Shown here: positions 8,947 to 40,361 of the stretch, one piece after another
Layout: each line of letters opens with the position of its first letter
How positions within the stretch are numbered: position 1 is the stretch's first letter
DNA from: Paenarthrobacter nicotinovorans
Lineage (GTDB): Bacteria; Actinomycetota; Actinomycetes; Actinomycetales; Micrococcaceae
NCBI RefSeq assembly: GCF_021919345.1
Contig: NZ_CP089293.1
Span: forward strand, 3,348,001 to 3,412,000
Direction of reading: 5' to 3'
Length of the DNA: 64,000 nucleotides
Notes under the pieces: model-generated
Told to the model about the DNA's origin: nothing
Database searches by the model: none
Seen by the model: only the letters and a program-made list of their open reading frames with translations
Program-made: the position numbers and the translations under genes

Positions 8947-9038
8947 ACGCCCTCCAGGCTGCCACCTTCCCCAAAGGTGGGCGTGGCATGCGCGCCAGGT
9001 GCCGTCGTCGTGCAATGCCCATAGACGCGCAGGCACAA

Positions 9039-11531: not shown

Positions 11532-11592
11532 CGTCGACGGGTCCTTCCAAGGCACAGGAAATCGGCACGGTCAGATGACTGAAGCCAACATT

Positions 11593-11614
11593 ACTGACCG
11601 GCCGTTCGGTAATA
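11593..11614. promoter_or_regulatory. Putative PaaR operator upstream of paaZ
   Basis: The core ACCGGCCGTTCGGT (11597-11610) fits the actinobacterial PaaR pattern ACCGNNCGNNCGGT exactly, flanked by ACTG before and AATA after. It lies about 65 bases upstream of the paaZ start. This is the best of three such sites in the window. Confidence 0.7.
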
Positions 11615-11658
11615 TATACAGGGTACATGAATCCCCCGGCGAGTACAGCAGTTGTTTT

Positions 11659-12387: not shown

Positions 12388-12428
12388 AGCAGCCAGCTAA
12401 GCACATCGACGGGCCGGAAGGGACCGCC

Positions 12429-12531
12429 TGCGCGCCGAGGGGTGAGCTCTCGGGACTAACTGCGCGCCGAGGGGTGAGCTCTCGGGACCAACCGCGGGCG
12501 CTTACCGCCGAAAGCTCACCCCTCGGCGCCG
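12429..12531. repeat. Direct and inverted 32 bp repeats forming a long hairpin
   Basis: The unit TGCGCGCCGAGGGGTGAGCT plus CTCGGGAC(T/C)AAC occurs twice in direct order with a 32-base period (from 12429 and 12461). A third copy lies inverted at about 12511-12531. The inverted copy includes the last codons and stop of the acetyltransferase gene. GCGCCGAGGGGTGAGCT can pair perfectly over 17 bases with either downstream copy, making a terminator-like stem. Confidence 0.75.
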
Positions 12532-13118: not shown

Positions 13119-13144
13119 CCGGATAGCCTAACCGGACCCAGCGC

Positions 13145-25846: not shown

Positions 25847-26254
25847 ATGCTCCGCGTTATAGGCGTCGTCGTCGTTCTTGTTGTCTTCGTCTATGCCCTG
25901 GTGGATGTCATACGCACTGACCGGCACCAGACCCGCGGCATTTCGAAGACCGCGTGGATCATCGTGATGATCGTCCTGCCGTTGCTGGGTGCCGTTCTGT
26001 GGTTCATTTTCGGCCGTCCCTACAACAAGCCCACGGCCACCCCCGTAAGGCGCCACCCCACCGCACCGGACGACGACCCCGAGTTCCTCCGCAACCTGGA
26101 GACCCGCCGTCGCAACCAAGCCGAAGAGGACCGCCTGAAGAAGCTCAAGGCGGATCTCGAAGCCAAGGAACGCAAACTCCGGGACACGTCATCAGGCACG
26201 GACGATGCCCACCGCGGTGAGCCGGATACGCATGATACCGACGAGCTGAAGTAG
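25847..26254 (+). CDS. PLD nuclease N-terminal domain membrane protein
   Basis: A protein of 135 residues with two membrane helices (VIGVVVVLVVFVYALVDVI and AWIIVMIVLPLLGAVLWFIF) around RTDRHQTRGISKT, the pattern of the phospholipase D N-terminal (PLDc_N) family. GRPYNK follows the second helix. No catalytic HKD motif is present, so it is not a nuclease. The C-terminal 75 residues are highly charged and probably coiled coil. It is 6 bases upstream of the next membrane protein gene and likely co-transcribed. Confidence 0.75.
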   Translation: MLRVIGVVVVLVVFVYALVDVIRTDRHQTRGISKTAWIIVMIVLPLLGAVLWFIFGRPYNKPTATPVRRHPTAPDDDPEFLRNLETRRRNQAEEDRLKKLKADLEAKERKLRDTSSGTDDAHRGEPDTHDTDELK

Positions 26255-26260
26255 GCAAAC

Positions 26261-26851
26261 ATGGCCCAGCAAGCTGATGGTTCACGGCAGTCACCCTCCA
26301 CGCCATCAGTCAGCGGGCCACCGGCGCCACCCCAGCGCCCGGGCATGTCCCTTTCAACTCCGCCGCCCATCCCTGCAGCGGTAAAGCCTCCCGGCCCGGC
26401 CCGGTTGTCCCGTTCGCTGTGGCTGGCAAGTTTCGTGGCCGGCATCGCCGTGGTCTTCACGGGGTTCCTTGGCCGCGACGCCCACTTTGAGCGCTTGAAG
26501 GGCGTTATCCAGTCCATGGTCCCGGACGGCGACGCCAACTCCGTCGAGGGGGCCGCCGCCGTCGTATTCCTCGGCAGCCTGGCCATGATCGCCGTGGTGG
26601 TCGCGATGGAAGCCGTCCTCTTGGCGATCCTTTTCAGGCGACGCACGTGGCCCCGTTGGGCCTTGGCTCCCCTGCTCCTCCTCCACGCCGTCGTCACCGT
26701 GATCACCGCTGATTATGTGGTCGCTCCGGGCAATGACGGCGTCATGGCCATGGTGCTTCTCGCCGCGCAATTCATCCTCGCTGCAGCCGGCCTGATTCTG
26801 CTTTTCCTGCCGTCGACGACAGCCTGGCTGCTCAGCGGGCGGCGGGCATAG
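26261..26851 (+). CDS. Hypothetical four-helix membrane protein
   Basis: I do not recognise this 196-residue protein. A proline-rich N-terminus of about 45 residues (PSVSGPPAPPQRPG and similar) is followed by about four membrane helices: WLASFVAGIAVVFTGFLG, AAVVFLGSLAMIAVVVAMEA, WALAPLLLLHAVVTVITA and VLLAAQFILAAAGLILLFL. It follows the PLDc_N gene closely. Its last 20 bases overlap the end of the convergent dynamin-like gene. Confidence 0.65.
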   Translation: MAQQADGSRQSPSTPSVSGPPAPPQRPGMSLSTPPPIPAAVKPPGPARLSRSLWLASFVAGIAVVFTGFLGRDAHFERLKGVIQSMVPDGDANSVEGAAAVVFLGSLAMIAVVVAMEAVLLAILFRRRTWPRWALAPLLLLHAVVTVITADYVVAPGNDGVMAMVLLAAQFILAAAGLILLFLPSTTAWLLSGRRA

Positions 26852-28310
26852 CCGCCAGGATACCTTCGCAACTGCGCAGGACAACCCGGCAGGCTTCCAC
26901 CGCCGAAGGCTCGACCAACAACGGGTTTTCCGCGATCTGCCGCCAACGGTCAAGGGCCCTGCGGGTTTCGCGCGCGATCTCCTCCGCGTCCGCGTCCGGG
27001 GGAAGTCCCAGCCTCTGGAACGGAAGGTTGCCGCGGCCGCCCACCAGTCGTTCCGCGTCCTCTGCCTGCCCGGGTGGCAGGACCACACCACCTGTCCGCA
27101 GCGAGCCCAGGAGCTTGAGTTCGCGGAATTCGTGCGCGCCGGCAAGCAACTCCTCCAGCGCCGGTTCGAGGACTGCTGACTGGCCGGGTTGGGAGCCGCT
27201 CAGCAGTGACTCCAAACCCACGACGGCGGCACGCGCCTTGAGTGCGTCGGCCCGCGTTTGGAACAAGGAGGCCACTGTGTCCAGCAGGCGGCCGAGTCCG
27301 CTGCGTCGCGCGAGTTCGTGCGCCAGTTCCGTCGGGTTGGTGATTCCGCCCCGGATCAGGGCCACTGCCAGCCGGATCCCGAACAGCCCGAACCGTTGAA
27401 CCAGGGAAGCCTTCAGGCCGGGCTCCACGCCTTCCGGTCCGGCCGCGCGGACAAAGCGGTCAACAGAAAGCATCATCCTTTCGCGCTGGTTCCGGTCCAT
27501 GCGCGCCAGGAGCATGAGGGCGTCCACGTCGCCCTGGCGCATGGTCCTGGAGCTCTGCGCCAGCAGTCCCGCCACGGGTACCACTCCCAGCGCGAGCGGT
27601 TTGAGGTTTTCGTCCCGGCTGTATCTGTCGGCAATCACGGCAGCGGAAATGAGCGAATCTATCCTGCCGGCACCTATCTCATCCGCGCGTGACAGGACAG
27701 CGAGGGCATTGACCGTCCCGGACTTCCCGGCGGCGGTGTCCTTGAAGGATTCGAGGAACCGGACATCCGAGGCGTGCAAATGACGCATCAGGTAGATAAC
27801 GGCGTCCGCAGCGGTGGGAGCGTCTTCGGGAAGCAGGAAGGCCGTGGACCTCCCGGATACATCCTTGGACAAGGAAGCGATGCCCGGAGTGTCGATCAAG
27901 GTGAGATCCCGGAGGCTGGCTGCCGGCCAATCAACCACGAGCTTTTCCACGTCCTCCGCCTGGAATTCCCCCAATGAAAACACCAAGCGGCCATCTTCAC
28001 GGTGCACTGGCAGCGCCTGCGGCCCGCCTGCCAAGGGGTGCAGGGTGATACGGGGAGCGTGCCCGTAGCGGTACCACGTGACGATCTTCGTGCACTCACC
28101 GGCGTCGGTAGGAGCGATCTCCTCGCCGATGATGGCATTGAGAAGGGTGGACTTTCCGGCTTTGACCATTCCGGCCACCGCAATGCGCAACGGCCCGGCA
28201 AGGCGTTGGTCGAGGTCGTCCAGGACAGCCAGGGCAGCCGGGTCCCCCTGGAAGACCTCCCGCGCTTGCCGGAGCAGCTCCGCTGCGCCGGCGATTCCCG
28301 ATTCGATCAT
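26832..28310 (-). CDS. Dynamin-like GTPase, IniC-like
   Basis: A 492-residue large GTPase. The P-loop VAGMVKAGKSTLLNAI (about 45-57) matches GxxxxGKS. LTLIDTPGIASLSKD is the G3 motif, and ALAVLSRADEIG stands in the G4 position with RAD instead of NKxD. The C-terminal half is helical, as in bacterial dynamin-like proteins. No clear membrane segment is seen. Its start overlaps the stop of the larger GTPase gene by four bases (ATGA), so the two are translationally coupled. The order IniB-, IniA-, IniC-like equals mycobacterial iniBAC. These proteins respond to envelope stress and probably remodel membranes. Confidence 0.82.
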   Translation of the reverse strand: MIESGIAGAAELLRQAREVFQGDPAALAVLDDLDQRLAGPLRIAVAGMVKAGKSTLLNAIIGEEIAPTDAGECTKIVTWYRYGHAPRITLHPLAGGPQALPVHREDGRLVFSLGEFQAEDVEKLVVDWPAASLRDLTLIDTPGIASLSKDVSGRSTAFLLPEDAPTAADAVIYLMRHLHASDVRFLESFKDTAAGKSGTVNALAVLSRADEIGAGRIDSLISAAVIADRYSRDENLKPLALGVVPVAGLLAQSSRTMRQGDVDALMLLARMDRNQRERMMLSVDRFVRAAGPEGVEPGLKASLVQRFGLFGIRLAVALIRGGITNPTELAHELARRSGLGRLLDTVASLFQTRADALKARAAVVGLESLLSGSQPGQSAVLEPALEELLAGAHEFRELKLLGSLRTGGVVLPPGQAEDAERLVGGRGNLPFQRLGLPPDADAEEIARETRRALDRWRQIAENPLLVEPSAVEACRVVLRSCEGILAAMPAAR

Positions 28311-30190
28311 CCCGCCGGAACCGCGGACGACGCCGGAACGGCGTGCTGTCCTCCGGCCCCTTCTTCCTGAAGTTGCCGGGCAACCGCGTGCAAGGTTTCC
28401 ACGGCTTTGAGCTGGTTCTTGATCTCCTTGATCCGCAGGTCCCGCTCGGCAGCATAGGTGGCTGCCGCCTTCTGCGCCGCAGCCACGGATTCGGTGAGGG
28501 AACGGTGGTGTTCCTCTGCGATGTCCGTGAAGTGATCCCGGGTGGCCCGCTGAACCAGCCGCAACCGGTCCTTGAGTTGCTTGCCCACCTGGAACACGAC
28601 GTCGTCCACCTGCTTCCGCACCAGGAGTTTGGCCTCTGCCTGCCGACGTTTCAGCCGTGCTTCCTGCTCCTCCCGATACGCTTTCCGGCCCAGCATGAGC
28701 CCGGCCCCCACAGACAGCGGGTTGATCAGGGCCAAGCCAAACAAACCCGTCAAGAGGCCAAACATCAGCACCCCGCCGTAGGACCCGCGCATGCCGATCA
28801 GAACCTTCTGCACAGGTCCCATACGGCCATCTTCCATGTCCTGGATTTCTGCCACGGGGTCAAGCACTCCGCCGGTGTCGGCAACGTGGAGGGCAGGCAA
28901 AGCCACTTCGTCTTCGGAAAAATGCTCTGCCACCTGTCCGGCCAGCCACTGTGCCCGCTCGCTGGTCCACACGAAAGTGTCGGACACGGCGGCGGCAACG
29001 CTTTGTTCAAGCCACTTGGCGAACTGTTCCCACGCGGGACCGGGATCGCCCTGGTCAATGGCCGCCTCGGCTTCGCGTTGTATTCGCCGAAGACGGTCCT
29101 TGAGGTCATATTCCATGTCCGCGATGAGATCGCCAATGCCGTCATTCAGGGTGGTCTGCCATCGGGCGGACTTCTTCCGGAGCGCGTCGGCATCGTCCTT
29201 GGCCGCTTTCAGGCCCGCGATCATCTGCGGTGTGTCTTCGGGATTTTCCAAGGCCCCAAGTTCCGACCGCAACGCCAGCATGAGGTTCCCCGTAACCGAC
29301 ACGAGGTCGTTGCCTACGGACCGGCGCTGGATGAGAGCCGCCTCAGCAACAATGGCGTTTCGCAGGTAGGAGACCAGCTCCGGGAATCCGGATTCGTTGT
29401 TCAATTCGGCGTCCTGGAGCCTCGCGGCCTCGAGCCGCACCTCCGAAGAGACAGGAAACAGGGGGATGTCCGGCCCGACGTCGGCCAGGTGGCCCTTGTC
29501 CAGCTCAGCGATCTGGCGCCATGCCGGATAGAGGTCTGTTTTGGACAGCACGCAGGCTACGTTGGGACTCACGCGCATGGCTTGCCGGAGGAAGCGCATT
29601 TCCGGTTCTGTGTACTCCTGGGACGCATCGGAGACAAACAGCATGGCATGTGCCGAGGGCAATGCCGTGAGCGTGGTCAGGGTGTGGCTTGAGCCAAGTC
29701 CTCCCACTCCCGGGGAATCCACAATGCAGAGCCCGCCTGACAGGAGCTTCCTGGGAAGGGCCACCTCCGCTGCAACGATGTTCCGGGCATTTCCCGGGTT
29801 GCCCTTCTCGGAGACGAAGTCGGACAATTCGGCCAACGGCACGGGCTTGCGCTCAAGGCGCGATTCACCGCCGTCGATGTCCGTAAAGCTGTCCGGCCCT
29901 GGGGGATCGGCCGCGGGGACAAGGACAACCGCCGACGCCGGATCACCTTGCCTTACCAGCGTGGGAACGGTGGTGGCGATGTCGTCATCCACCGGGCACA
30001 CAGGAGCGTTGACCAAAGCGTTGATGAGCTGGCTCTTCCCTTGTTTGAACTCGCCCACCACAATCACCCTGACGTTGGGGTCCTGCAGGCGTCGGAGCGT
30101 GTTGTCCAAGCGCCGCCTGAGGTCGTTCCGCTCACCTGCCAGTGCTATCCCGTGCTCCACAAGGGTGGTCATGCGTACTGTTTCCGCCAC
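28307..30190 (-). CDS. Dynamin-like GTPase, IniA-like
   Basis: A 627-residue dynamin family GTPase. The P-loop VIVVGEFKQGKSQLINALV (about 43-61), LCIVDSPGVGGLG as G3 and ACVLSKTDLYPAW as G4 (SKTD) are all present. A hydrophobic hairpin YGGVLMFGLLTGLFGLALINPLSVGAGLMLG (about 505-535) is probably a membrane paddle, followed by a charged coiled coil. This layout equals mycobacterial IniA and other bacterial dynamins that bind and fuse or stabilise membranes. Start GTG 30190, behind AAAGGAAG; GTG 30208 is an alternative. It lies 130 bases after the IniB-like gene. Confidence 0.85.
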   Translation of the reverse strand: MAETVRMTTLVEHGIALAGERNDLRRRLDNTLRRLQDPNVRVIVVGEFKQGKSQLINALVNAPVCPVDDDIATTVPTLVRQGDPASAVVLVPAADPPGPDSFTDIDGGESRLERKPVPLAELSDFVSEKGNPGNARNIVAAEVALPRKLLSGGLCIVDSPGVGGLGSSHTLTTLTALPSAHAMLFVSDASQEYTEPEMRFLRQAMRVSPNVACVLSKTDLYPAWRQIAELDKGHLADVGPDIPLFPVSSEVRLEAARLQDAELNNESGFPELVSYLRNAIVAEAALIQRRSVGNDLVSVTGNLMLALRSELGALENPEDTPQMIAGLKAAKDDADALRKKSARWQTTLNDGIGDLIADMEYDLKDRLRRIQREAEAAIDQGDPGPAWEQFAKWLEQSVAAAVSDTFVWTSERAQWLAGQVAEHFSEDEVALPALHVADTGGVLDPVAEIQDMEDGRMGPVQKVLIGMRGSYGGVLMFGLLTGLFGLALINPLSVGAGLMLGRKAYREEQEARLKRRQAEAKLLVRKQVDDVVFQVGKQLKDRLRLVQRATRDHFTDIAEEHHRSLTESVAAAQKAAATYAAERDLRIKEIKNQLKAVETLHAVARQLQEEGAGGQHAVPASSAVPAG

Positions 30191-30320
30191 GGTTCTTCCT
30201 TTGCTCACATGCCGCCCCTTGTCAGGGGGCCACGAAGTGCCCGGCAGGAGGGGGTCCACCTGCCGGGCACTGCTGGGGTTTCGCGCTTGTGCTTGCAACT
30301 CCTGCGCGGAGGGTGCTGCC

Positions 30321-31688
30321 TCAGTCGATGTCGACGTCGTTCTTGGCAACCACCACCGAATCATCAATGTCGTTGTACTCGACATCGAGTTCGTTATCCG
30401 CCACAACAACGTTGTCCTCGACGTTGGTGTAGTCAACGTCGACGTCGCCTACGGTGGTGGAATTGTCCTCGGTGTAGGTCAACTCGTTGTCGGCCACAAC
30501 GATGGAATCATTGATGACGTTGACGTCGTCCACTTCCACGTTGGTGGAGTAGTCCGGCGAGTATTCCAGGTCCAGTTCGTTGTCCTGGACCACCACGGAA
30601 TCGTTCACCACTTGTACGTCCTCCAGATCGACATCCACGTCCGTGGAGTTGTCGTTGAACGAGTCCGTGGCCGTGTTGGTGGTGTTGGTTGTGGTGGTCG
30701 TGTTCGTTGTGTTGGTGGTATTCGTTGTGTGGTTGGAGTTGTCCTCGTTGAACGAATCCTCGATCTCCACATCCACATCAACATCGGTATTGTACGAATC
30801 CTCTGTGTTGTAGGAATCGTCCGTGTTGTACGAGTCCTTGGTCACCGAATGATCCGAGTAGTCGTTGCCCACCGAGACATCGTTGTTGTTGCCGCTGGTG
30901 TTGACGTTGACCGAGTTGTCCACGGTGTGGTCATCGTTGTTCGTGGTGGTGGTTGTGGTCGTGGTGTTTCCGGAATTCGTGACATCGTCGCCGGCGGCAA
31001 TGGCACCATCACCGGAGGCGATCACTGCGTCCTGGTTGAACATCTGGGAGACATCTCCGTTGGCCCAGATGTTCTGGTTCACCGACTGGTCCGTGATCGT
31101 GTCGCGGTCATCAATGGTGGTGGTGTAGGAGTAGTTGTTCACCACGTGGACGAGTTGCTGGACCGCATGTGCATGGTCGTCGTGCCCGCCGCCCCAACCA
31201 CCGCCGGCACCGCCACCGCCGCCGCCGTGATCGTCGTCGTGGTCGTGGTCATGACCGTCATGCCCGCCATCCCAACCACCGCCGGCACCGCCACCGCCGC
31301 CGCCGTGATCGTCGTCGTGGTCGTGGTCATGACCGTCATGCCCGCCATCCCAACCACCGCCGGCACCGCCACCGCCGCCGCCGTGATCGTCATCGTGTTC
31401 CGGGCGTCCGCCGCCACTCCAGCCGCCGCCATCGTGCTCGGGCCGTCCGCCGCCGGTCGTCGCGTGGTTTCCTCCGGTGTTGTATTCACGGTCGAAGGAC
31501 GACCGGGCATTGATCGGTGCGTAGTCGAGGACCACGGGGCGGACGGCGTCGACATCTGCGGAGGAGACATCCCGCAGGCCCGCAGCGGCGAGGGCCGCTT
31601 CGGGATCGCGTACAAAGTCTTCTGCGGCGTCAGGATCGTTGAACAGGCTCATCAGGAACTGCACGAGCTGTTGTGCGAGTGTTGGCAT
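30321..31688 (-). CDS. IniB N-terminal domain protein with acidic repeat region
   Basis: A 455-residue protein. Residues 1-60 (LVQFLMSLFNDPDAAEDFVRDPEAALAAAGL and on) match the IniB N-terminal domain. Residues about 75-170 hold three copies of DDDHGGGGGGAGGGW(D/G)GGHD with a 26-residue period, rich in His, Asp and Gly. Then VNNYSYTTTIDDRDTITDQS starts a long Asn/Thr/Asp-rich part ending in repeats such as NDSVVVQDNELDLEY and NDSIVVADNELTYTE. The repeats suggest a beta-solenoid or fibrous surface protein. There is no signal peptide. GAGGGAG precedes ATG 31688. It is first of the iniBAC-like genes. Confidence 0.82.
   Translation of the reverse strand: MPTLAQQLVQFLMSLFNDPDAAEDFVRDPEAALAAAGLRDVSSADVDAVRPVVLDYAPINARSSFDREYNTGGNHATTGGGRPEHDGGGWSGGGRPEHDDDHGGGGGGAGGGWDGGHDGHDHDHDDDHGGGGGGAGGGWDGGHDGHDHDHDDDHGGGGGGAGGGWGGGHDDHAHAVQQLVHVVNNYSYTTTIDDRDTITDQSVNQNIWANGDVSQMFNQDAVIASGDGAIAAGDDVTNSGNTTTTTTTTNNDDHTVDNSVNVNTSGNNNDVSVGNDYSDHSVTKDSYNTDDSYNTEDSYNTDVDVDVEIEDSFNEDNSNHTTNTTNTTNTTTTTNTTNTATDSFNDNSTDVDVDLEDVQVVNDSVVVQDNELDLEYSPDYSTNVEVDDVNVINDSIVVADNELTYTEDNSTTVGDVDVDYTNVEDNVVVADNELDVEYNDIDDSVVVAKNDVDID
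31201..31391. repeat. 78 bp coding tandem repeat (about 2.5 copies)
   Basis: Units begin at 31201, 31279 and 31357 with a 78-base period; the first two are identical and the third covers about 35 bases before diverging. They encode the 26-residue His/Asp/Gly repeat of the IniB-like protein. Copy number may vary between strains. Confidence 0.85.
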
Positions 31689-31812
31689 TGGAGTGCTCCC
31701 TCAAATTCTGTGGTTTTCGAAATTGGCCCGGCGCCTTTGCCGGGCTTGCATTCAACGTATTGCCGGGACCGAAGACCGGGCATCGGGGGTGGTCCCCCTA
31801 CCCCATGCCCTG

Positions 31813-31846
31813 CCGTTAGGGGATTGCCGGGTTTTCCGTTAGGGGG
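31813..31846. promoter_or_regulatory. Direct repeats upstream of the IniB-like gene
   Basis: CCGTTAGGGG occurs at 31813-31822 and again at 31836-31845, 23 bases apart (about two helix turns), 125-158 bases before the IniB-like start. The spacing suits an activator of the LuxR type, and such a gene lies just upstream. The gap 31689-31862 also has a GCCCGGC/GCCGGGC hairpin near 31733-31754. Confidence 0.45.
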
Positions 31847-31862
31847 CTGAGGGGGGTCCCGC

Positions 31863-33932
31863 TTACGGAGGGGGGTACCCCTCCCCCAACGCCAGGCGCA
31901 GGCGGACCAGCAGCTCTGAACGGTTTTCCGCTCCCAGGCGACGCCGCATGCGCGCCACATGGTGTTCCGCGGTGCGGGGCGAGATGTAGATGGCCTCGCC
32001 GATCTCGCGGTAGGTCTTGCCTTCCAGGATGAGCCGGGCGACCTCGCGCTCCCTGGGGCTGAGCCCGGATGAATCCTGAACCCCCGGACTCCCGTACTCC
32101 CCGGCAAGTGCATGCAAGGAGACGTCAGCTTGTGAAGCGCCGGCCCGCTCCGGAGGCGGGGCCGATGGGGAAACCCCCTGGGGGTGGATGTCCCGGGCAC
32201 AGGCAAGGAGCCGCACCATGTCCCGCCGCTCTTCGGCGTGCGCAGCGGCATGGCCGGCCAGCCGTGCGCCTTCCCAGGGCAATCCGACCGAGGCCAAACC
32301 ACGGGCGGCGGTTTCGACGTCGGACGCTTCAAACCGTGCGGCCAGGACCGAAACCCAGGCTTTGCCCGCTGCAGCGAGCACGGACGCCAGGTGGCTGTGT
32401 TCGGAGGCACGCACCAGCGCAGCAGCGTGGGGAGCGAGTTCGGCCGGACTTTCGCTAAGAAGGGCTGCCTGCACTCCAGCCCAATGCAGGGGCACCGACC
32501 ATAATGGGGCATCCCCCAGGCGGCCAACGAAGTGCCAGACACCGTCCAGGTAATGCCCCACCCGGCGGGTCTCCCGCAACCGTGCGGCGGCGATCATTAG
32601 CTCTCCCCAGGGCAGGAGACTGAACAGGTCCACTGACACATGCATCATTGCCTCGCGGGCCCGCTCCCACGCCAGCAGCAGCTCGTGGACTTCGCTGCCC
32701 CGGCGTGCCAAACCGACATCCAACGCAGCAAGCAGGAAATCATCCCTGGGCGCCAAGGGCCAGTGGTTCGCTTTCAATGCTTCGTTGATGGCCAAGCGGG
32801 CTTCGTCCGGGTTGTCCTGCTGCATGGCGGTCCAGGCCTGCAACAGGAACAGCCTGGGACGGGCCGTATTGCCGCCCTGTCCGGCGGCAAGCGCTGCCTT
32901 GAGGACCATATCGGCGATGCCGGCTTCCCCGGTGTGGAGGGCGCACAGCGCGGCAAGGGCCGCCGGTGTCTCCACAAGGGGAATCGACGTGCCGGCCGCG
33001 TTCATCATGTCGGAGGCCCTGATGAGCTCCGGCAGTGCGATTTGTGGCGTGGGTCCCAGTGTTTGACGAAGTCCCTGCTGGGTCAATGACAGAGCCACAG
33101 CCAGGAGTGTAGGTGAGCCCTCCGGCGAGGCAGCAGCCGCCAACTGACCGGCGCCCGCAACGTTGCCTGAACCAATCATGGCCACGGCTGCAAGGGGCGC
33201 CGAACCGTCGATCCTGTCCCGCCCCAGCCAGGTGTACGTGTCCGCGCTCCGGGAGAGCATGCCCCGCTGTGCCCAAACAGCCGCAGCAACGTCAACTCCC
33301 AGGCGGATGTGAGGGGCCTCCGGCGTTGCCAGGAGCCGGTCCACTATCCTGCCGGCAGTGTCCAGATCGCCCAAGGCCGCCGCTGCCTGCGCCCGCCTGG
33401 CCGCGGTGGTGGTCTCCTGTCCTCCGGCGAGAAGTGCTTCTGCATAGAGTTCGGCCGCCAGGCCGGGCTCGGAGTCCAGAACCCCCTCCGCGGCACGCTC
33501 CAGCTCCGCGACGATCCGTGGATCCTGGAACCCGTTCTGCGCAAGCTGCCGGGCAACGTCGCCCAAGGGACGGCCCTCTGCCGCGGTCCTGTCCACCAGT
33601 TCCCTCTGCAGGGCCCGGATGCGCGCCGGCGCTGTGCTCGAGAGCAAGGCATAGTGGACGGTCCCAACCACTGATCCATCAGGCGATATCAGCCCGGCGT
33701 CCTTTGCCACGTGGATGACCGAGTCCAGGTCTTCGCGGTGTTCAAGGCTGCCGGGCAGAAGGGAGTGGAGGGAAAAACCCAAGGACAGCGCCAGCAGCAA
33801 CTCCTGGACTGCGGCGGGCTGACCGGGCAGTTCAGGGCCCGGCGCCTCTCCCGGGGCGTCGTCCGGGAGGCCGGACGGCTGCTCATCCCACCCGGGCGGA
33901 AAATGCCGCGGCCGGTGGTCCTGTCCCGTCAT
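31863..33932 (-). CDS. LuxR-family regulator, IniR-like, lacking the ATPase domain
   Basis: A 689-residue regulator. Residues about 40-110 (LLLALSLGFSLHSLLPG ... VHYALLSSTAPARIRALQRELVD) look like the winged-helix linker after the ATPase in LAL/IniR proteins. Then come many TPR-like helices. The last 65 residues are a LuxR helix-turn-helix (LSPREREVARLILEGKTYREIGEAIYISPRTAEHHVARMRRRLG). No Walker A motif is found, so the usual N-terminal ATPase is missing. It is 3 bases downstream of the Hsp70-like gene. In mycobacteria the related IniR controls iniBAC, and this gene probably has the same job. Confidence 0.82.
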   Translation of the reverse strand: MTGQDHRPRHFPPGWDEQPSGLPDDAPGEAPGPELPGQPAAVQELLLALSLGFSLHSLLPGSLEHREDLDSVIHVAKDAGLISPDGSVVGTVHYALLSSTAPARIRALQRELVDRTAAEGRPLGDVARQLAQNGFQDPRIVAELERAAEGVLDSEPGLAAELYAEALLAGGQETTTAARRAQAAAALGDLDTAGRIVDRLLATPEAPHIRLGVDVAAAVWAQRGMLSRSADTYTWLGRDRIDGSAPLAAVAMIGSGNVAGAGQLAAAASPEGSPTLLAVALSLTQQGLRQTLGPTPQIALPELIRASDMMNAAGTSIPLVETPAALAALCALHTGEAGIADMVLKAALAAGQGGNTARPRLFLLQAWTAMQQDNPDEARLAINEALKANHWPLAPRDDFLLAALDVGLARRGSEVHELLLAWERAREAMMHVSVDLFSLLPWGELMIAAARLRETRRVGHYLDGVWHFVGRLGDAPLWSVPLHWAGVQAALLSESPAELAPHAAALVRASEHSHLASVLAAAGKAWVSVLAARFEASDVETAARGLASVGLPWEGARLAGHAAAHAEERRDMVRLLACARDIHPQGVSPSAPPPERAGASQADVSLHALAGEYGSPGVQDSSGLSPREREVARLILEGKTYREIGEAIYISPRTAEHHVARMRRRLGAENRSELLVRLRLALGEGYPPP

Positions 33933-33935
33933 GGG

Positions 33936-36041
33936 TCAGACCGCCGGAGTCAGTGCTGGATCCGGGGCCGGACTTGTTTCTGTTGGCAGGGGCTCCGGGG
34001 CGACAGTGGCCGGCGGGATAGTGGGCTCGGGCTGCACTGTTGGTTCAGGCGACGGTGGAGCAGGGTCCTGGGTCACTGTGGGTTCTGGCTGCGGCACCGT
34101 GGGTACCGGCGATGGGGTAACCGGGTCCGTCGGTATGACAGGTGGCGTGGAAGGATCGGTTACCGGCGGCGGCACAGTGGGTGGCGTCGTTGCCGGTGGT
34201 GGTGTGGGTCCGCTGGCGGCCCCGCCTGTAGGCTCCGGGGTGGGCGTCGCCGCCGGAGGGTTGCTGGAGCCGCTTCCGGGAGTCTCCGGCGTCGTGGTTC
34301 CAGTGGCAGCCCCGCCTGTAGTGGCAGCCCCGCCTGTCCCGGCCGCGTTGCCTGCTCCGCCGGTACCGCCTGTCCCGGCCGCACTGCCTGCTCCGCCGGT
34401 ACCGCCTGTCCCGGCCGCACTGCCTGCTCCGCCGGTACCGGCTGTCTGGCCTTGGGCAGCCCCCGATCCCGCACCTGAGCCGTTTCCCGTGCTTCCCGAC
34501 CGTGCCGGGCTCTTTCCGGTCCCGGTCCCCGCCCGCGTCACTCCTGCGCGGGCACTGGCCTCAAGTCCCGCCGTCGGACCTCCCACTGCCGGTGCCGCAC
34601 CCGGGGCGGCATCGCCCCCGCCGTTGGCTTGGGCTGCGGCAACCGGCGAGCCGTCGCCGCGCATGACGTCGGCAGCCTGGTTTCCGAACATGGACGCCAG
34701 AATGCCGCTGCCTTCAGGGCTCTGCGCCGCCGTGGCGGTGGCAATGGTCAGCGCAGTTGCTGCTGCGACCGCCGCTGCGGCCAGGCGGACGTGGGAGCGG
34801 TGTGCGCCCCCGGGAGCGACCGCGGCTTTGACGGCACCGAGGTGGGGCCTGGAGCCGGCGACGTGCGGCCGCGCAGTCTTTGCCCGCTTGGCAACGCCAC
34901 GTCCTTCCATCACCGTCGCCGGGGCAGCCTCAGCTTCGGCCGCTTCCAGGTCTGCTGCAGTTGCGGTACCCAGACCCGCGACAGCGGCGCCAAGGCAGAT
35001 GGACGACTTGGGATCGGCATCGACGGCGATCGGACGGTCCAGTTCCACCGAAATCATTTCCGCCACCAAGGGAATGCGGGACGAACCGCCGATGAGCAGC
35101 ACGGTACTCAGGTCCCCGGGCTCAAGGTGGATGCTGCGCAGGCTCCGCTCGAGAGCGTGCACGGTTTCCCGGATGGACGCCTCGATCAGGGCCTCGAACT
35201 CGGACCGCACCAGCCGCAGGGTCCGCTGGGTTCCCGGCAGCGCGACGGCGATACTGGCCTCGCTGTCCATGGACAGCGCTTCCTTGGCTTCGCGGCACTC
35301 CCGCCGCAGCCTGGATAACGCTGCCTTGCTTTCCGGCGCCTCCGGCTCGAGTCCCTCCAAGGCGTCCCCGAGGTGACCCATGACGTGGCGCAGAACGGCG
35401 GCGTCGAAATCGGCGCCGCCAAGGGTTTCAATGCCGTCGGGACGGCCCAGGAGTTCGAAGCTGCCAGCGCCCGCCTTGCGCAGGACCGCGGTATCGAACG
35501 TTCCGCCGCCAAGGTCATACACGGCGATGGTGCTGCCGTCCTCCACGCGGGTTTGGGTGGCGTAGTGCAGGGCGGCGGCAACGGGTTCGCTGATCAGGGT
35601 GACATCGTGCAGGCCCGCAACGTTCAACGCGGCGAGGACCGTCGAGGTACGGTGCGCGCCCCACGCTGCGGGGTGCGTCATGATGATCGACGACGGCAGG
35701 CTCCCCTCCCGCTCTTCGGCCCTGTCCACCACCCATCGAGCCATGGTGGCGTACACGTCCTCGGGCGACATCCAGCCCTCACCCACAGCGAGTGGAACGG
35801 AGTCGCCTATGCGGCGCTTGAATTCCCTGACCATCCGCCGGGGATCGTCCAGGCCCCGGCGTTCAGCCGCCTCGCCCACCAATATCCGGCCGTCGTCCGC
35901 GTAGAAAAGCACCGAAGGCACAGTGCTTCCATGGATCCCAAGGGGCAGGATTTCAGGCGTGGGTGCGGCGCTCCGCCCAGGCTTGATAAGAGCTGCGGCG
36001 GTGTAACTTGTCCCGACATCAATGGCGAGAACATAGCTCAT
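33936..36041 (-). CDS. Hsp70-type ATPase with membrane anchor and Pro/Gly-rich outer tail
   Basis: A 701-residue protein. Residues 1-370 form an Hsp70/actin-like ATPase: LAIDVGTSYTAAALI (phosphate 1), VYDLGGGTFDTAVL (phosphate 2) and LLIGGSSRIPLVAEMI (adenosine) are intact. There is no substrate-binding domain of the DnaK kind. Instead a basic linker leads to one membrane helix (about 419-440, LAAAAVAAATALTIATATAA), then 260 residues rich in Ala, Gly, Thr and Pro that should be outside the cell. These include GGTGGAGSAAGT repeats and a PTP/PVP-rich end. It could sense or push on the envelope (inference). It heads the island, 3 bases before the LuxR gene. Confidence 0.85.
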   Translation of the reverse strand: MSYVLAIDVGTSYTAAALIKPGRSAAPTPEILPLGIHGSTVPSVLFYADDGRILVGEAAERRGLDDPRRMVREFKRRIGDSVPLAVGEGWMSPEDVYATMARWVVDRAEEREGSLPSSIIMTHPAAWGAHRTSTVLAALNVAGLHDVTLISEPVAAALHYATQTRVEDGSTIAVYDLGGGTFDTAVLRKAGAGSFELLGRPDGIETLGGADFDAAVLRHVMGHLGDALEGLEPEAPESKAALSRLRRECREAKEALSMDSEASIAVALPGTQRTLRLVRSEFEALIEASIRETVHALERSLRSIHLEPGDLSTVLLIGGSSRIPLVAEMISVELDRPIAVDADPKSSICLGAAVAGLGTATAADLEAAEAEAAPATVMEGRGVAKRAKTARPHVAGSRPHLGAVKAAVAPGGAHRSHVRLAAAAVAAATALTIATATAAQSPEGSGILASMFGNQAADVMRGDGSPVAAAQANGGGDAAPGAAPAVGGPTAGLEASARAGVTRAGTGTGKSPARSGSTGNGSGAGSGAAQGQTAGTGGAGSAAGTGGTGGAGSAAGTGGTGGAGNAAGTGGAATTGGAATGTTTPETPGSGSSNPPAATPTPEPTGGAASGPTPPPATTPPTVPPPVTDPSTPPVIPTDPVTPSPVPTVPQPEPTVTQDPAPPSPEPTVQPEPTIPPATVAPEPLPTETSPAPDPALTPAV
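34335..34446. repeat. 36 bp coding tandem repeat in the Hsp70-like tail
   Basis: About three copies of a 36-base unit around CTGCTCCGCCGGTACCGCC. Each encodes 12 residues of the GGTGGAGSAAGT type in the predicted outer tail. Confidence 0.8.
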
Positions 36042-36218
36042 GGGTACCTCGAGAGTTCACATGGCACGACGCAAGCGAGCTGCTTCACTAGCGGGTCTTG
36101 AACAAGTTAGCACCTGCTCCGGACACGCAAAAGGCTTAATTGCTACACCGAATTGTCAATTTCCCGAGGCCGCTGATGACTATTGAAGTAAAGCTCCTGC
36201 TCAGCGCCGGATTGGACC

Positions 36219-37286
36219 TTAGAGGCCGGAGTAGGAATGCAAGCCGTTGAAAACGGTATTTACCAACGTGAAGTTGATGATGACGCAGGCGTATCCGACG
36301 ATTGACAACCACGCTGCACGGGTGCCTGTCCAACCACGGGTGGCACGGGCGTGCAGGTAGCCTGCGTAGACAACCCAGATCACGAAGGTCCAGACTTCCT
36401 TGGGATCCCAGCCCCAGAACCGGCCCCAGGCCTTCTCGGCCCAGATCGCGCCGAACATGAGCGTGAACGTCCAGCCAATGAACGCGATCGCGTTGATGCG
36501 GTAGGACAGGTTCTCCAGGCTCAGGGCGTTGGGAACCACGCGCATGAAGGCCAGGTTGTCTGCGCGGCCGGCCGCCAGGTTCTTCTGCCGGTACGACTGC
36601 AGCAACTGCAGGACGGACATGGCGAAGGTCAGGGTGAACAAAGCGGATGACAGGACCGCGATGGAGACGTGGATGATGAGCCAGTAGCTCTGCAATGCGG
36701 GGACCAGGTGGCCAACCGGGGTCCAGAAGGACACCGACGCAGCCACCAGCATGATGATAGCCAAGCCCAGCACGAACGTGCCGAGGAACCGCAGGTCGCG
36801 GCGGATCAGCGTGATCAGGAAGACGGCCACGGCAACGAAAGCGCCCGTGGTGAGGAATTCATACATGTTGCCCCACGGCACGCGGCCGGCGCCCAATGCC
36901 CGGGTCACCACTCCTGCGCCGTGAATCAGCACGCCAAGCACCGTCAAGGCCACTGCCACGCGAGCGGGAACGCGCCGTTCGGCCGTGTACCGCATGTCGC
37001 CTGCCGCAGTCCCGCCTGCATGGGTGGGGCCCGACGTCGGACGCTCGGCCCGGCCGGCCGGCCCGCCGGCGTCGGGACCTGACAGGGCAGCCCCAACGCG
37101 ACCGGCTGCAACGCTGACCTTTTCGCTGGTGGACCTGGCTGCTGCCTTCAAATCCACTGCCTGGAAGGTCTTGCTGCTCTTCGCCAGATCCCAGGCAAAG
37201 GCGATGAACGCCACGGTGTACGTGCCGGCGGCCAACAGCATGAACAGCTCGCTGTACTGGCCCAGGGTTTCGTTGATGGCTGGCAT
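36219..37286 (-). CDS. ccsB: Cytochrome c biogenesis protein CcsB (CcsA/ResC family)
   Basis: A membrane protein of 355 residues with about eight helices. WAEKAWGRFWGWDPKEVW is the tryptophan-rich haem-handling motif of CcsA/ResC proteins. Conserved His residues lie in LLIHGAGVVTR, LIIHVSIAVL and GYLHARATRGW. With ResB it moves haem across the membrane and attaches it to apocytochrome c (System II). The start is ATG 37286, one base overlapping the resB stop (TAATG) and preceded by GAAGGACC. It is last of the operon. The gap 36042-36218 after it should hold the Hsp70-like gene's promoter; I see no clear terminator. Confidence 0.92.
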   Translation of the reverse strand: MPAINETLGQYSELFMLLAAGTYTVAFIAFAWDLAKSSKTFQAVDLKAAARSTSEKVSVAAGRVGAALSGPDAGGPAGRAERPTSGPTHAGGTAAGDMRYTAERRVPARVAVALTVLGVLIHGAGVVTRALGAGRVPWGNMYEFLTTGAFVAVAVFLITLIRRDLRFLGTFVLGLAIIMLVAASVSFWTPVGHLVPALQSYWLIIHVSIAVLSSALFTLTFAMSVLQLLQSYRQKNLAAGRADNLAFMRVVPNALSLENLSYRINAIAFIGWTFTLMFGAIWAEKAWGRFWGWDPKEVWTFVIWVVYAGYLHARATRGWTGTRAAWLSIVGYACVIINFTLVNTVFNGLHSYSGL

Positions 37287-38995
37287 TACTGGTCCTTCGA
37301 GGTTGAGGAAGAGACGGTTCGAGGTGCGGGAGGCTCCGGTGATTCCGGGAGGTTCCATTCGCGGGCAAAGATTTCACGCAGTGCTGCGGCTTCTCCGGCG
37401 AGGCGGTGGTCTTCACCGCGTGCCAGCAAGCCGTACTCCACCATGGTGCGCCCGTCCTGGTGGGTTCCGGTGCGGACCCAGACCCGGCGGCGGTTGACGT
37501 AAAGGGAAACCATCAGGCCACCCACCGCCAGCAGGCCGAAGATAAGGGCGTACAGCTGGCCGGGGTTGTGGTGGATGTCAACGCCGATGTACTTCTTAAC
37601 ACTGTCGAAGGTGATGCTTCCCTTACCCTCGGGCAGAGTTGCGGTCTGGCCCAAACCGAGCACGATGCCGCCGGCCTCAAGCTTGCGCCCGTTCAGCTGG
37701 GTAAGGTTCTTGACGTCCAGTTCAAAGACATTCTGGGGCGTTCCCTCATCCAGGCCCAGGTCGCCGTAGTAGGAATCCAGGTTCAACTGCGGGTTGGCCA
37801 AAGCGGGGTCGGCACTGAAGGAGATTCCTTGTTCCGACTCGAAGGCGGTCGGCAGGAAGAAGCCGTTGAAGCCAAGCTGGTCGGGAGTGCCGTCCGGGAC
37901 CTTGATGACCACGGACGAGTAGTAGTTGGCCCCCTGGACCTTCGCGGTGACGGGACCTTGGAAAGCCACGTTGCCGTCGCCGTCCCGGACCGTGACCACG
38001 GGTGCGTAGCCGTTGCCCGTGAGGTACAGGCTTGTTCCGCCCAGGGAAATGGGGTCGTTGACCTTCAGCACTTCCTTCTGCTCGGGCGCGCCTGGGTCTT
38101 CCTTGGTGGTGACCTCGGCCGTGTAGTCGATCGGCTGGCCGGTCTTCTTGGGCGACTCCCGGTCGAACGTTGCCTGGAACTTGTCCAAACGGACCGAGTA
38201 CGGCTGAAGCGAGCTGCTTTGGAAGTTGGTGCCCGGGGTGAACTGGTCATAGCCAACCAGGGTGTTGACGAAAGTTTCGCCTTCGACCAGGATGCGCTGG
38301 CCGCTGTATCCGAACAGGCCGCCGATGGCCACGGACACCAGCACGCCGATCAACGAGGTGTGGAACACCAGGTTGCCCACTTCCTTCAGGAAGCCCCGCT
38401 CGGCGCCCAAGGACGGCAGGGCGCCGTCGACGTCGCGTACATCAACGCGGTAACCGCGCTTCTTGAGCAGCCCGGCGGCATCGTTGATGGCTTTCGACGC
38501 CGGGATCCCGGCGTCGGCGGGCAGCGCCAGGGTGCCGTACTCCGGAAGCCGCGAAAGGCGCTTGGGAGTGCGCGGCGGCTGCGACTTCATGGCTTTGTAG
38601 TGCGCAATGGCGCGGGGGGTCACGCAGCCGATCAGCGAAATGAACAGCAGAATGTAGATGGCCGAGAACCAGGCGGACGAATAGACGTCGAACATCTGGA
38701 GGGCATCCAGGAACGGCCCGGTTGCAGGGTTGTTCTTGATCCACTCAGTGACCGTGACAGGGTTGGCGGCGCGCTGCGGGAACAGCGAACCCGGCACTGC
38801 ACCGACGGCCAGCAAGAGAAGCAGGAACAGCGCTGTACGCATGCTCGTCAACTGGGTCCAGGCCCACCTGAGCATGCCCTTGAATCCGAGCACGGGTACC
38901 GCGGCCTCAGACTTGGCCTGCTGGAGTTTTCCTTCCGCTGTGGTGGCGCCTTCAGCGGCTGGTGACTTCTTCTTGGCTTTCACGGACTCGCTCAT
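37286..38995 (-). CDS. resB: Cytochrome c biogenesis protein ResB
   Basis: A 569-residue membrane protein of the ResB family (called Ccs1 in plastids). Three N-terminal helices (TALFLLLLLAVGAVPGSLFP, WFSAIYILLFISLIGC and FHTSLIGVLVSVAIGGLF) are followed by a large outer domain and a last helix before YVNRRRVWVRTG. The outer domain includes VEGETFVNTLVGYDQFTPG, as is usual. It partners CcsB in haem delivery and ligation. The start ATG overlaps the ccdA stop by one base (TGATG), showing tight coupling. Confidence 0.92.
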   Translation of the reverse strand: MSESVKAKKKSPAAEGATTAEGKLQQAKSEAAVPVLGFKGMLRWAWTQLTSMRTALFLLLLLAVGAVPGSLFPQRAANPVTVTEWIKNNPATGPFLDALQMFDVYSSAWFSAIYILLFISLIGCVTPRAIAHYKAMKSQPPRTPKRLSRLPEYGTLALPADAGIPASKAINDAAGLLKKRGYRVDVRDVDGALPSLGAERGFLKEVGNLVFHTSLIGVLVSVAIGGLFGYSGQRILVEGETFVNTLVGYDQFTPGTNFQSSSLQPYSVRLDKFQATFDRESPKKTGQPIDYTAEVTTKEDPGAPEQKEVLKVNDPISLGGTSLYLTGNGYAPVVTVRDGDGNVAFQGPVTAKVQGANYYSSVVIKVPDGTPDQLGFNGFFLPTAFESEQGISFSADPALANPQLNLDSYYGDLGLDEGTPQNVFELDVKNLTQLNGRKLEAGGIVLGLGQTATLPEGKGSITFDSVKKYIGVDIHHNPGQLYALIFGLLAVGGLMVSLYVNRRRVWVRTGTHQDGRTMVEYGLLARGEDHRLAGEAAALREIFAREWNLPESPEPPAPRTVSSSTSKDQ

Positions 38996-39750
38996 CAGAT
39001 TGGCAACTTCACGTCATTTTGGAACCAGTACTGCAACCCGGTCACCCACTGGCCCCACACACCGGTGGCCATCAGGATGCCGAGCAAAATCAGGATGCCT
39101 CCGCCGATCCGCTGGATGGCCAAACGGTGCTTGCGGAAGAAGGACATGACACCCATGCCCCGGCGGACGGCCAGAGCGATCAGGAGGAACGGGATGCCCA
39201 GGCCAAGGCTGTAGATGAACGCCAGGAGCGCACCTTTGGCCGCCGACGATCCGCCGGACAAGCTCAGCAACTGTACCGCGGAGTAGGTCGGGCCAATGCA
39301 TGGTGCCCAGCCCAAACCGAACGTGAGTCCAAGCAGCGGCGCACCCCACAGTCCGGCCGGCGGTTTGGCGTGGATCTTGGCATCACGCTGAAGCCAGCCG
39401 AAGCCGCCCATGAACACGACGCCCATGACGATCACCAGAAGGCCCAGCAGCTGCGTGATCCAGGCGTTCTGCGGGCCCGTCAGCAGCGTCCCGAGCTGGC
39501 CGAAGGCGCCGCCCAGGAGCACGAAAATTACGGAGAATCCGAGGACAAACAGCCCGATCCCCGCCAGCATCCGGCCACGCCGCTGCTTTTGCAGGTCGAC
39601 GCCGGTCAGCCCGGTGACGTACCCCAGGTACCCGGGTACCAACGGCAGCACGCACGGCGAGAGGAACGAAACCAGCCCGGCCAGCAATGCGACCGGCACG
39701 GCCAGCAGAAGGGAACCGTTGAGGATGGTCTCGGCGAAAGGACTGTTCAC
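38995..39750 (-). CDS. ccdA: Thiol-disulfide membrane transporter CcdA
   Basis: A 251-residue protein with about six membrane helices. LLAGLVSFLSPCVLPLVPGYLGYVTG and LTFGLGWAPCIGPTYSAV contain the two redox-active Cys residues in PC contexts, in helices 1 and 4, as in CcdA/DsbD. It carries electrons from cytosolic thioredoxin outward to keep apocytochrome c thiols reduced, via ResA. It lies between resA and resB. Confidence 0.93.
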   Translation of the reverse strand: MNSPFAETILNGSLLLAVPVALLAGLVSFLSPCVLPLVPGYLGYVTGLTGVDLQKQRRGRMLAGIGLFVLGFSVIFVLLGGAFGQLGTLLTGPQNAWITQLLGLLVIVMGVVFMGGFGWLQRDAKIHAKPPAGLWGAPLLGLTFGLGWAPCIGPTYSAVQLLSLSGGSSAAKGALLAFIYSLGLGIPFLLIALAVRRGMGVMSFFRKHRLAIQRIGGGILILLGILMATGVWGQWVTGLQYWFQNDVKLPI

Positions 39751-39755
39751 GGTGA

Positions 39756-40361
39756 CTACTCGCCCACGGCTGAGGTGATGAGGGCCTTCAAGGTGCTCTT
39801 TTCAATCTCGCCAAGCACGCGGGAGGCAACTTTGCCTTCCTTATCAAGGACCAGGGTTGTGGGGACGGCACCGGGCGGGACGATGCCGGACACGGACAGC
39901 AGCACGGACCCGTCCTTGTCGTTGAAGCTCGGGTAGGTGAGGTTGAACGTCTTGTCGAAGGCCTCAGCGGTGGCCTTTTCATCGCGGAGGTTCACGCCGA
40001 AGAACTGGACGCCCTGGTCCTTGAATTCCTGGTGCAGCGCTTCAAGCTGCGGCGCTTCGATCCGGCAGGGAGCGCACGCAGCAAACCAGAAGTTCAGGAC
40101 CGTGACCTTGCCCTTGAGGTCCTCGGGCTTGACCTCATTTCCGTTGAACAGGGTGCCCTTGAGGGCTACGGGCGCTGCACGGTCGGCTTTGGCGAATTCC
40201 GTCACCGAGCCGTCGCCGGCCACGTAGTTCTTGTTGTCGCCCGCCTTTGCCTGCTCCGCAAGGGAGTCCTTCTGGGCGCACGCGGAAAGTCCCATGGTCA
40301 GTCCCGCCAGCAGGACACCGCCGGCGGTAAGAACGCCTCGACGTGAAAGGTTGTTGTCCAT
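39756..40361 (-). CDS. resA: Thiol-disulfide reductase, ResA/TlpA-like lipoprotein
   Basis: A 201-residue membrane-anchored thioredoxin-fold protein. The signal MDNNLSRRGVLTAGGVLLAG ends in the lipobox LSAC with lipid-bearing Cys28. NFWFAACAPCRIEAPQLEAL has the active-site CAPC (Cys95, Cys98). PPGAVPTTLVLDKEG contains the cis-Pro. It reduces the haem-binding cysteines of apocytochrome c outside the membrane, fed by CcdA. It is 5 bases upstream of ccdA and 6 bases downstream of the phosphatase gene. Confidence 0.92.
   Translation of the reverse strand: MDNNLSRRGVLTAGGVLLAGLTMGLSACAQKDSLAEQAKAGDNKNYVAGDGSVTEFAKADRAAPVALKGTLFNGNEVKPEDLKGKVTVLNFWFAACAPCRIEAPQLEALHQEFKDQGVQFFGVNLRDEKATAEAFDKTFNLTYPSFNDKDGSVLLSVSGIVPPGAVPTTLVLDKEGKVASRVLGEIEKSTLKALITSAVGE

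Follow-up and report, generated by a model that had tools for sequence, protein, structure and literature searches.

Organization of the gene set

The 64,000-nucleotide stretch analyzed here (contig NZ_CP089293.1, positions 3,348,001 to 3,412,000; hereafter the window) belongs to the 4.48-Mb genome of Paenarthrobacter nicotinovorans and carries a set of genes resembling the mycobacterial iniBAC system and its regulator, IniR. A preliminary description of this DNA had placed five minus-strand genes at 26832–36041, and open reading frames (ORFs) together with family and structure matches confirmed all five: hsp70-like, iniR-like, iniB, iniA and iniC (Table 1). A sixth gene, convergent with iniC, encodes a small membrane protein. 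The central observation was that a gene for a membrane-anchored Hsp70-type ATPase stands directly beside the gene for an IniR homologue without an ATPase domain, and that adjacency of hsp70 and iniR recurs over many families of Actinomycetota.

The earlier statement that several of the genes are joined by 3-base gaps or ATGA overlaps held for two junctions, a 3-base gap between hsp70 and iniR (33933–33935) and a 4-base ATGA overlap between iniA and iniC (28307–28310). It did not hold for the other two, where gaps of 174 bases (iniR–iniB, containing a candidate operator) and 112 bases (iniB–iniA) intervene. The iniA ORF opens upstream, at 30436 (ORF 28307–30436), and the GTG at 30208 is the likely start. 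The set probably comprises two transcription units, hsp70–iniR and iniB–iniA–iniC, with the candidate operator between them. A sigma-70 scan of 26200–36400 returned 0 promoters against 1.0 expected, and a terminator scan returned 7 against 6.8 expected, which is chance level. The guanine-plus-cytosine fraction was 0.695 in hsp70 and 0.68 in iniR, compared with 0.635 in the window.

Table 1. Features of the ini-type locus in the window
Feature	Position	Strand	Basis
Hsp70-like membrane ATPase, 701 aa	33936..36041	-	Pfam HSP70, structure match
Parts of the Hsp70-like protein: ATPase domain (residues 1 to ~372), linker, membrane helix (residues 420-438), 263-residue tail	34728..34784 (helix)		
IniR-like LuxR regulator without AAA+ ATPase domain, 689 aa	31863..33932	-	IniR profile, alignment, model
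Candidate IniR box 1, CCCCTAACG (minus-strand reading)	31837..31845	-	k-mer and CCCCTA counts, genome pattern search
Candidate IniR box 2, CCCCTAACG, 23 bases from box 1	31814..31822	-	same motif counts and genome search
TAGGGGGA and CCCGATGCC elements, iniB upstream	31779..31800	-	k-mers recurring in many loci
TACGTT, possible -10 hexamer of an iniB promoter	31754..31759	-	position only
IniB-like protein, 455 aa	30321..31688	-	IniB_NTERM match
IniA-like dynamin GTPase, 633 aa from GTG at 30208	28307..30208	-	Dynamin_N, structure 6j72
IniC-like dynamin GTPase, 492 aa	26832..28310	-	Dynamin_N
Sixth gene product, small membrane protein, 196 aa	26261..26851	+	ORF; hydrophobic segments by eye

A membrane-anchored Hsp70-type ATPase

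The Hsp70-like protein matched Pfam HSP70 at 164 bits, with its best stretch at residues 88–356. Because only DnaK and this protein matched that family in the whole host genome, the identification was not due to chance. All 10 of the scored ATP-site residues matched DnaK; in E. coli DnaK numbering we take these to be D8, G10, T11, K70, E171, D194, G196, T199, G341 and G342. The predicted model had a predicted local distance difference test score above 90 up to about residue 360, and a structure search with it returned DnaK-type structures as the best matches. A substrate-binding domain was not found, as the profile and structure matches stopped at about residue 356–360 (profile position 372 of 599), and the predicted model and hydropathy showed disorder or a membrane helix beyond the ATPase domain. 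With its ATPase domain followed by a membrane helix and tail, and no domain for binding substrates, the protein as modeled is not a DnaK-type chaperone. Its fold and conserved ATP-site residues, together with a long, repetitive and polar IniB, would suit a dedicated chaperone for IniB as an exported or aggregation-prone client; given the linker, helix and tail that follow the ATPase domain, we consider this role highly improbable.

The membrane helix named in the preliminary description was weak taken alone (best 19-residue stretch, mean hydropathy 1.75), but a helix was found at a mean hydropathy of at least 1.4 in 70 of 74 Hsp70 copies, the window included, and at 1.6 or more in 69. These 74 were drawn from 81 copies; those of L085, L101, L103, L111, L115, L123 and L132 were left out as broken, cut or unseen (surveyed loci and genomes are cited by L and G numbers). 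The positive-inside pattern was strong, with an average of 3.9 lysine or arginine residues in the 20 residues before the helix and 0.55 after it, and therefore the tail should face the wall. In the window this outer tail spans 263 residues rich in Pro, Thr, Gly, Ala and Ser. Some distant copies (L055, L056, L065 and L066) have tails with repeats or a conserved end segment, which fits the expectation for a receptor. In L055, L056 and L066, the tail finishes in a conserved stretch of some 85 residues that includes two cysteines and could be the sensor domain; the repeats in the L065 tail appeared RCC1-like by eye. Separately, a second Hsp70-like gene lies downstream of iniR or beside iniC in the mycobacterium-type loci L059, L060 and L064.

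Absence of the AAA+ domain from the IniR-like regulator

The likening of the LuxR-type regulator to IniR in the preliminary description stood as to homology and failed as to domain make-up. The protein scored 348.4 bits against the NCBIfam equivalog profile for IniR (NF038181), below the curated cut-off of 750, and an N-terminal AAA+ domain with Walker A and B motifs was not found: profile positions 1–220 were unmatched, the domain was missing in the alignment and the predicted model was all-helical. The DNA between the Hsp70 stop and the conserved IniR domain would encode only 45 residues. A superhelix like domain III of MalT (residues 40–582) and a LuxR-type helix-turn-helix (HTH; residues 623–682) were kept. 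Foldseek alone placed eukaryotic tetratricopeptide repeat proteins on top for this model, and MalT was found in a second look (VIA). The regulator is thus homologous to IniR but has no AAA+ ATPase domain; its nearest relative among the IniR sequences compared is that of Paenarthrobacter histidinolovorans (91% over 557 columns).

The same absence was observed in 39 of 98 scorable IniR rows. These rows came from 109 loci, the window included, after exclusion of contig edges (L048, L049, L050, L103), runs of N (L058, L090, L101), frameshifts (L111, L132, L145) and two partial copies (L053). The ATPase-less rows comprised most Micrococcaceae (not L092, L093 or L105), Compostimonas (L106), a Pseudonocardiales metagenome-assembled genome (L114) and G468 (L051). 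On the best IniR tree, built by a quick method and with several long branches, the distribution of the ATPase domain required four changes, three of them forced by well-supported branches. Three rows (L066, L131, L137) that a hidden Markov model had called ATPase-less were overturned, as Walker motifs were present, and an apparent Hsp70–IniR fusion in L101, which extends across a run of N, was not taken as evidence.

In every one of the 39 ATPase-less rows, the Hsp70 gene lies directly upstream of iniR. All 10 scored ATP-site residues of that Hsp70 were intact in 37 of the 39, compared with 31 of 56 rows with an ATPase-bearing IniR (Fisher p = 1.7e-5, the rows being related), which suggests, short of proof, a greater importance of the Hsp70 ATPase in loci whose IniR is ATPase-less. 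An ATPase-less IniR could also be governed by ligand alone, with a sugar or peptide on the superhelix driving DNA binding and the Hsp70-like protein serving a structural role at the wall. Such an arrangement seems improbable to us; it leaves unexplained both the persistence of hsp70–iniR adjacency through rearrangements and the retention of the Hsp70 ATP site in those 37 cases.

Conservation of the hsp70–iniR pair

Clustering of the Hsp70-like and LuxR genes with the dynamin pair, on which the preliminary description had made its proposal depend, was surveyed and found far outside close relatives. A species scan by IniR, with one genome per species, covered the best 80 of 529 relatives; it was weighted to close ones, and more exist. 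An Hsp70 gene was scored upstream of iniR on the same strand in 76 of these 80 named loci and was seen there by eye in L101, L115 and L145; L103 was cut by a contig edge. Thus, hsp70 stands directly upstream of iniR in 79 of the 79 assessable loci, including L111, L123 and L132, where genes are broken by frameshifts. Of the 76 scored junctions, 36 leave 0–30 bases between the two genes (exactly 3 in 12 cases), 20 overlap by 4 bases and 1 by a single base, 2 leave 31–100 bases, 2 leave more than 100, and 15 have unresolved ORF starts. Shared transcription, also expected earlier of the set, was indirectly supported for hsp70–iniR by the 57 of 76 junctions that overlap or leave at most 30 bases, and probably does not extend to the set as a whole.

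Gene order was tabulated for 74 of the 80 loci (L073, L085, L099, L111, L132 and L145 were dropped). Four main orders were found: hsp70–iniR–iniB–iniA–iniC; hsp70–iniR–iniB with an inverted iniA–iniC; and iniB–iniA–iniC divergent from hsp70–iniR, either without or with the sixth gene. The window order including the sixth gene occurred 35 times, the inverted iniA–iniC 10 times and the divergent, mycobacterium-like order 8 times. The pairs hsp70–iniR and iniA–iniC stayed together while the other ini genes moved. IniB was detected in 74 of the 80 loci, and IniA and IniC were both detected in 69; of the other 11, 10 are shorter than 15 kb, and L085 (22 kb) has neither.

To greater depth, an IniR model was run against 198 genomes from the order and 396 from the phylum, and gave a top group of 28 loci well above the HTH-only background. 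An Hsp70 match above 100 bits lay near IniR in 26 of the 28 (not L039 or L053) and IniA in 24 (not L039, L051, L053 or L055); in L055 (G514), an IniA match lies slightly further along the same contig. Within the 396 phylum genomes, IniR occurred in 16 (at least 131 bits; next genome 53) and an ini-type Hsp70 above 250 bits in 18. Both were present in 15 genomes, IniR only in 1, Hsp70 only in 3 and neither in 377, spanning six families (Fisher p = 2e-23, relatedness not removed). The 250-bit threshold separating ini-type Hsp70 from DnaK was chosen with the scores already in view (255 versus 231 for the best from another genome), and some of the genomes counted also contributed sequences to the Hsp70 model, A3. 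The IniR-only genome, G343 (L062), has a degraded Hsp70 beside iniC that scored 176 bits. Neighbors tend to be co-inherited, as the constant siting of the set within the genus (described below) illustrates, and the genes might have been thrown together by chance or hitchhiking; given adjacency over many families amid rearranged surroundings and an ini-type Hsp70 in 15 of 16 IniR genomes against 3 of 380 others, we consider the probability of this negligible.

Two further records deserve mention. The locus L138, from a record titled Planococcus sp. APC 4015, is of Microbacterium type, and in the tree its IniR falls among those of Microbacterium, so that a wrong name or contamination is probable for this record. 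Two copies of the set occur in some genomes, such as Arthrobacter sp. SF27 (L092/L145) and G614 (L162), where the second copy lies on another contig and its IniR is about 51% identical to that of the window.

IniB, the dynamin-like pair and the sixth gene

The iniBAC order proposed for the three remaining minus-strand genes was upheld. The window IniB matched IniB_NTERM (NF038175) at 72.3 bits (cut-off 40), and consists of that N-terminal domain, a Gly/His/Asp-rich stretch and Asn/Asp/Thr/Val-rich repeats. A stretch reading IDDRDTI...SGDGA is common to it and one deep-locus IniB-like protein (2e-08, two-sequence comparison). Both GTPases carry Dynamin_N (64.6 and 49.9 bits, cut-off 27), and the IniA-like protein matched the M. 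smegmatis IniA structure 6j72 with an E value of 1.4e-138. PADLOC reported LeoA/LeoBC dynamin similarities of up to 52 bits for the GTPases, and gave 20 bits to PDC-M61B for the Hsp70-like protein and 18 bits to a CARF model over the IniR HTH.

The sixth protein begins with a Pro-rich region and, on visual inspection, contains about four hydrophobic segments; searches of Pfam, NCBIfam and PADLOC returned no match for it. Its gene is convergent with iniC in 62 of the 92 loci that reach 1 kb past iniC, which marks it, by position, as a conserved member of the ini set.

A candidate operator upstream of iniB

The 220 bases before iniB were compared in 100 sequences from 89 loci. CCCCTAA occurred in 62 of the 89 loci; in one shuffled set, no 7-mer occurred in more than 25. 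At least one CCCCTA was present in 86 of the 100 sequences, compared with a mean of 11.2 in 20 dinucleotide shuffles, and at least two in 62, compared with a mean of 0.6 (maximum 3). These counts were made on the same sequences from which the motif was chosen, many of them from close relatives. The spacings between copies peaked at 8–9 and 22–23 bases, the latter being about two helical turns. In the Arthrobacter group, 30 of 34 sequences had two or more copies, as did 12 of 12 of mycobacterium type. The exact box pair of the window occurs once in the host genome, before iniB. No clear conserved palindrome was found in the iniB upstream regions, the best dyads occurring in 11 of 89 loci. We regard the boxes as a candidate IniR operator on the strength of this motif enrichment. 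The 177 bases upstream of hsp70 contain no CCCCTA box, and therefore the hsp70–iniR half is probably not under its own control.

Proposed mechanism

We infer that the set forms a conserved module for envelope stress in actinobacteria, with one half for sensing and one for output, in which the Hsp70-type ATPase contacts and gates IniR, and give this reading a somewhat better than even chance. From the sensing half, hsp70–iniR, an IniR-type activator would be co-produced with a protein that is anchored in the membrane, faces the wall and has its Hsp70-type ATPase domain in the cytoplasm. The output half would consist of iniB–iniA–iniC and the convergent small membrane protein, with IniB acting as a surface or scaffold protein and the dynamin-like IniA/IniC pair acting on the membrane. 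The Hsp70-type ATPase would bind the IniR superhelix and hold or release it according to its nucleotide state and the state of the wall felt by the outer tail, and IniR would bind the tandem CCCCTAA boxes before iniB, turning the output half on.

Such a hold on IniR would be analogous to that on E. coli MalT, which is held by MalK and other partners. MalT likewise combines a superhelix with a LuxR-type HTH, and its operons resemble that of the window in having direct repeats upstream. Unlike the window IniR, MalT has a STAND ATPase domain of its own, and its partners are not known to include any of Hsp70 type. Because IniR in this genus is without the AAA+ domain, ATP-dependent gating must come from the Hsp70-type partner or have been given up. 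We advance tentatively, as less likely than not, the further idea that the Hsp70 fold would be the cytoplasmic transducer of a one-pass receptor, in which a wall-facing tail is linked to an actin-fold ATPase that gates a MalT-like activator, and that the Arthrobacter-type partner would have taken over the ATP switch lost by that activator.

Several observations weigh against gating of IniR by the Hsp70-type ATPase. Four Hsp70 copies (L105, L128, L139, L144) are without a clear membrane helix; their ATP sites are degraded as well, and the IniR of each of these loci retains an ATPase domain. The Hsp70 ATP site is also degraded in the mycobacterium-type loci L059–L064 (D8 to S, K70 to V, E171 to D, T199 to G), so partner ATPase activity is not universal. 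Reciprocity between the IniR and Hsp70 ATPases is non-independent evidence: in its strict form, with an ATPase kept in either protein, it was rejected, as the tree gave 3–4 independent contrasts, none significant, and it amounts to a hint at most. In L051, IniR has no ATPase domain while the Hsp70 site is also degenerate, and L085, where the gene is probably damaged, is a second exception. The boxes are weaker beyond the Arthrobacter group and mycobacteria: only 6 of 12 sequences of Pseudonocardiales type and 3 of 15 of Microbacterium type have at least two CCCCTA. One genome, G073 (L039), has IniR and no Hsp70 above DnaK-like scores, nor an IniA match. Finally, the two genes are not always neighbors: in seven deep loci (L047, L052, L054, L056, L057, L058, L066) Hsp70 lies 4.7–6.3 kb from IniR, and in three loci (L152–L154) an ini-type Hsp70 lies near dynamin genes with no IniR found. 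An IniB-like gene missed by the short model was seen by eye in all six of the deep loci inspected for it (the seven less L058).

These last two observations fit the main rival, in which the Hsp70-like protein would work with the dynamins as a membrane-anchored ATPase, recruiting assemblies of IniA/IniC (and IniB), taking them apart or remodeling them, and its proximity to iniR would reflect co-regulation only. In the seven deep loci, IniA and IniC lie between Hsp70 and IniR or beside them. In L152 (G232, 8569–13789), IniA–IniC–Hsp70 are joined by 4-base overlaps as one apparent operon, with no strong IniR in the genome. In G227 (L153), the ini-type Hsp70 lies about 3.7 kb from iniA–iniC, and in G358 (L154) it lies within a few kb of a dynamin with only a weak IniC-type match (122 bits), the genome having no IniA match; neither genome has a strong IniR. 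Against such a partnership, Hsp70 stays beside IniR in all assessable named loci even where iniA–iniC is inverted or on the other side. In addition, hsp70 has no box upstream and is therefore probably not expressed with the boxed iniB unit. We thus judge a role confined to the dynamins rather unlikely, and retain the gating of IniR as the preferred reading.

Gain or loss of the set at one site

The cytochrome c maturation genes ccsA, resB, a DsbD-like gene and a thioredoxin-like gene lie directly upstream of the set (window 36219–40361, minus strand). Within the genus, ccsA was present in 61 of 61 genomes, and a match to the window IniR at an E value of 1e-50 or better was present in 33. In 32 of those 33, the match lay within 5 kb of ccsA on the same contig; in G589, the two were on separate contigs. 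In four set-less loci of the genus (L157–L160), a PLDc_N gene follows ccsA after 0.05–1.7 kb (1.7 kb in L157, at most 0.2 kb in the others). None of the six genes was found in the stretch taken from these loci when compared with window 25847–37358, IniA match rows being left out of the comparison. Because the six genes are absent together at this site, the set seems to have been gained or lost as a unit.

Relation to known systems and implications

IniR, iniBAC and a dnaK-like gene beside M. smegmatis iniR were already known. In mycobacteria, no promoter is reported to respond to ethambutol and isoniazid as strongly and specifically as that of iniBAC; the IniR proteins of M. tuberculosis and M. 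marinum activate it, and M. tuberculosis IniR binds upstream of iniBAC by chromatin immunoprecipitation sequencing (PMC5760070). M. smegmatis IniA was reported to mediate membrane fission (PMC6715688). The window set shares with the mycobacterial system (IniR being Rv0339c and MMAR_0612) the IniB N-terminal domain, the IniA/IniC GTPases and the B-A-C order, and its regulator is likewise LuxR-type, with a MalT-domain-III-like middle, and adjoins the operon, as described for mycobacterial IniR (PMC5760070). It differs from mycobacterial IniR in having no AAA+ domain. Its hsp70–iniR pair runs in the same direction as iniB, not divergently as in L059–L061, L063 and L064, and its Hsp70 ATP-site residues are intact, unlike those of L059–L064. 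Because the host genome has a single IniB_NTERM gene, it also has no counterpart of iniB*.

The preliminary description had held that an Hsp70-like protein had no described role in such a set. A dnaK-like gene directly downstream of M. smegmatis iniR is in fact in print, in one sentence and without analysis in the sections of the source covered here (PMC5760070); in L059 and L060, iniR is flanked on each side by an Hsp70-like gene. A literature search that covered few subscription journals returned nothing beyond that sentence on an Hsp70 partner of IniR, and nothing on an ATPase-less IniR or a CCCCTAA motif at iniB, which is no proof of absence from print. DnaK and other Hsp70 chaperones share the ATPase fold and ATP-site residues of the window protein, which instead of their substrate-binding domain has a membrane helix and an outer tail. 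DO-GTPase conflict systems with HSP70 and tubulin (Kaur et al. 2020, PMC7159879) also link one or two TRAFAC-clade GTPases to HSP70; some of them include another HSP70 that has no peptide-binding domain, and many have transmembrane components. As described there, their GTPases form a separate family with a GAP1 partner, which sets them apart from the IniA/IniC dynamins, IniB and IniR of the window.

The CCCCTA(A) boxes upstream of iniB, a candidate operator, and the sixth gene convergent with iniC are new here, and the survey also brings out a close partner that had been overlooked. In M. bovis BCG, the iniBAC response is reported to parallel an ATP burst, for which the IniR AAA+ domain was proposed as sensor, a role that was, according to the authors, still to be determined (PMC6104191). 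An IniR without AAA+ beside an Hsp70-type ATPase makes that proposal testable, and the natural ATPase-less IniRs, all beside an Hsp70-type gene, provide a ready-made experiment on how IniR senses damage. The ini system is widespread in Actinomycetota and not solely mycobacterial. If the proposed role of the Hsp70-type protein is true, it would represent a form of transmembrane signaling unlike that of a histidine kinase, Ser/Thr kinase, anti-sigma factor or one-component receptor.

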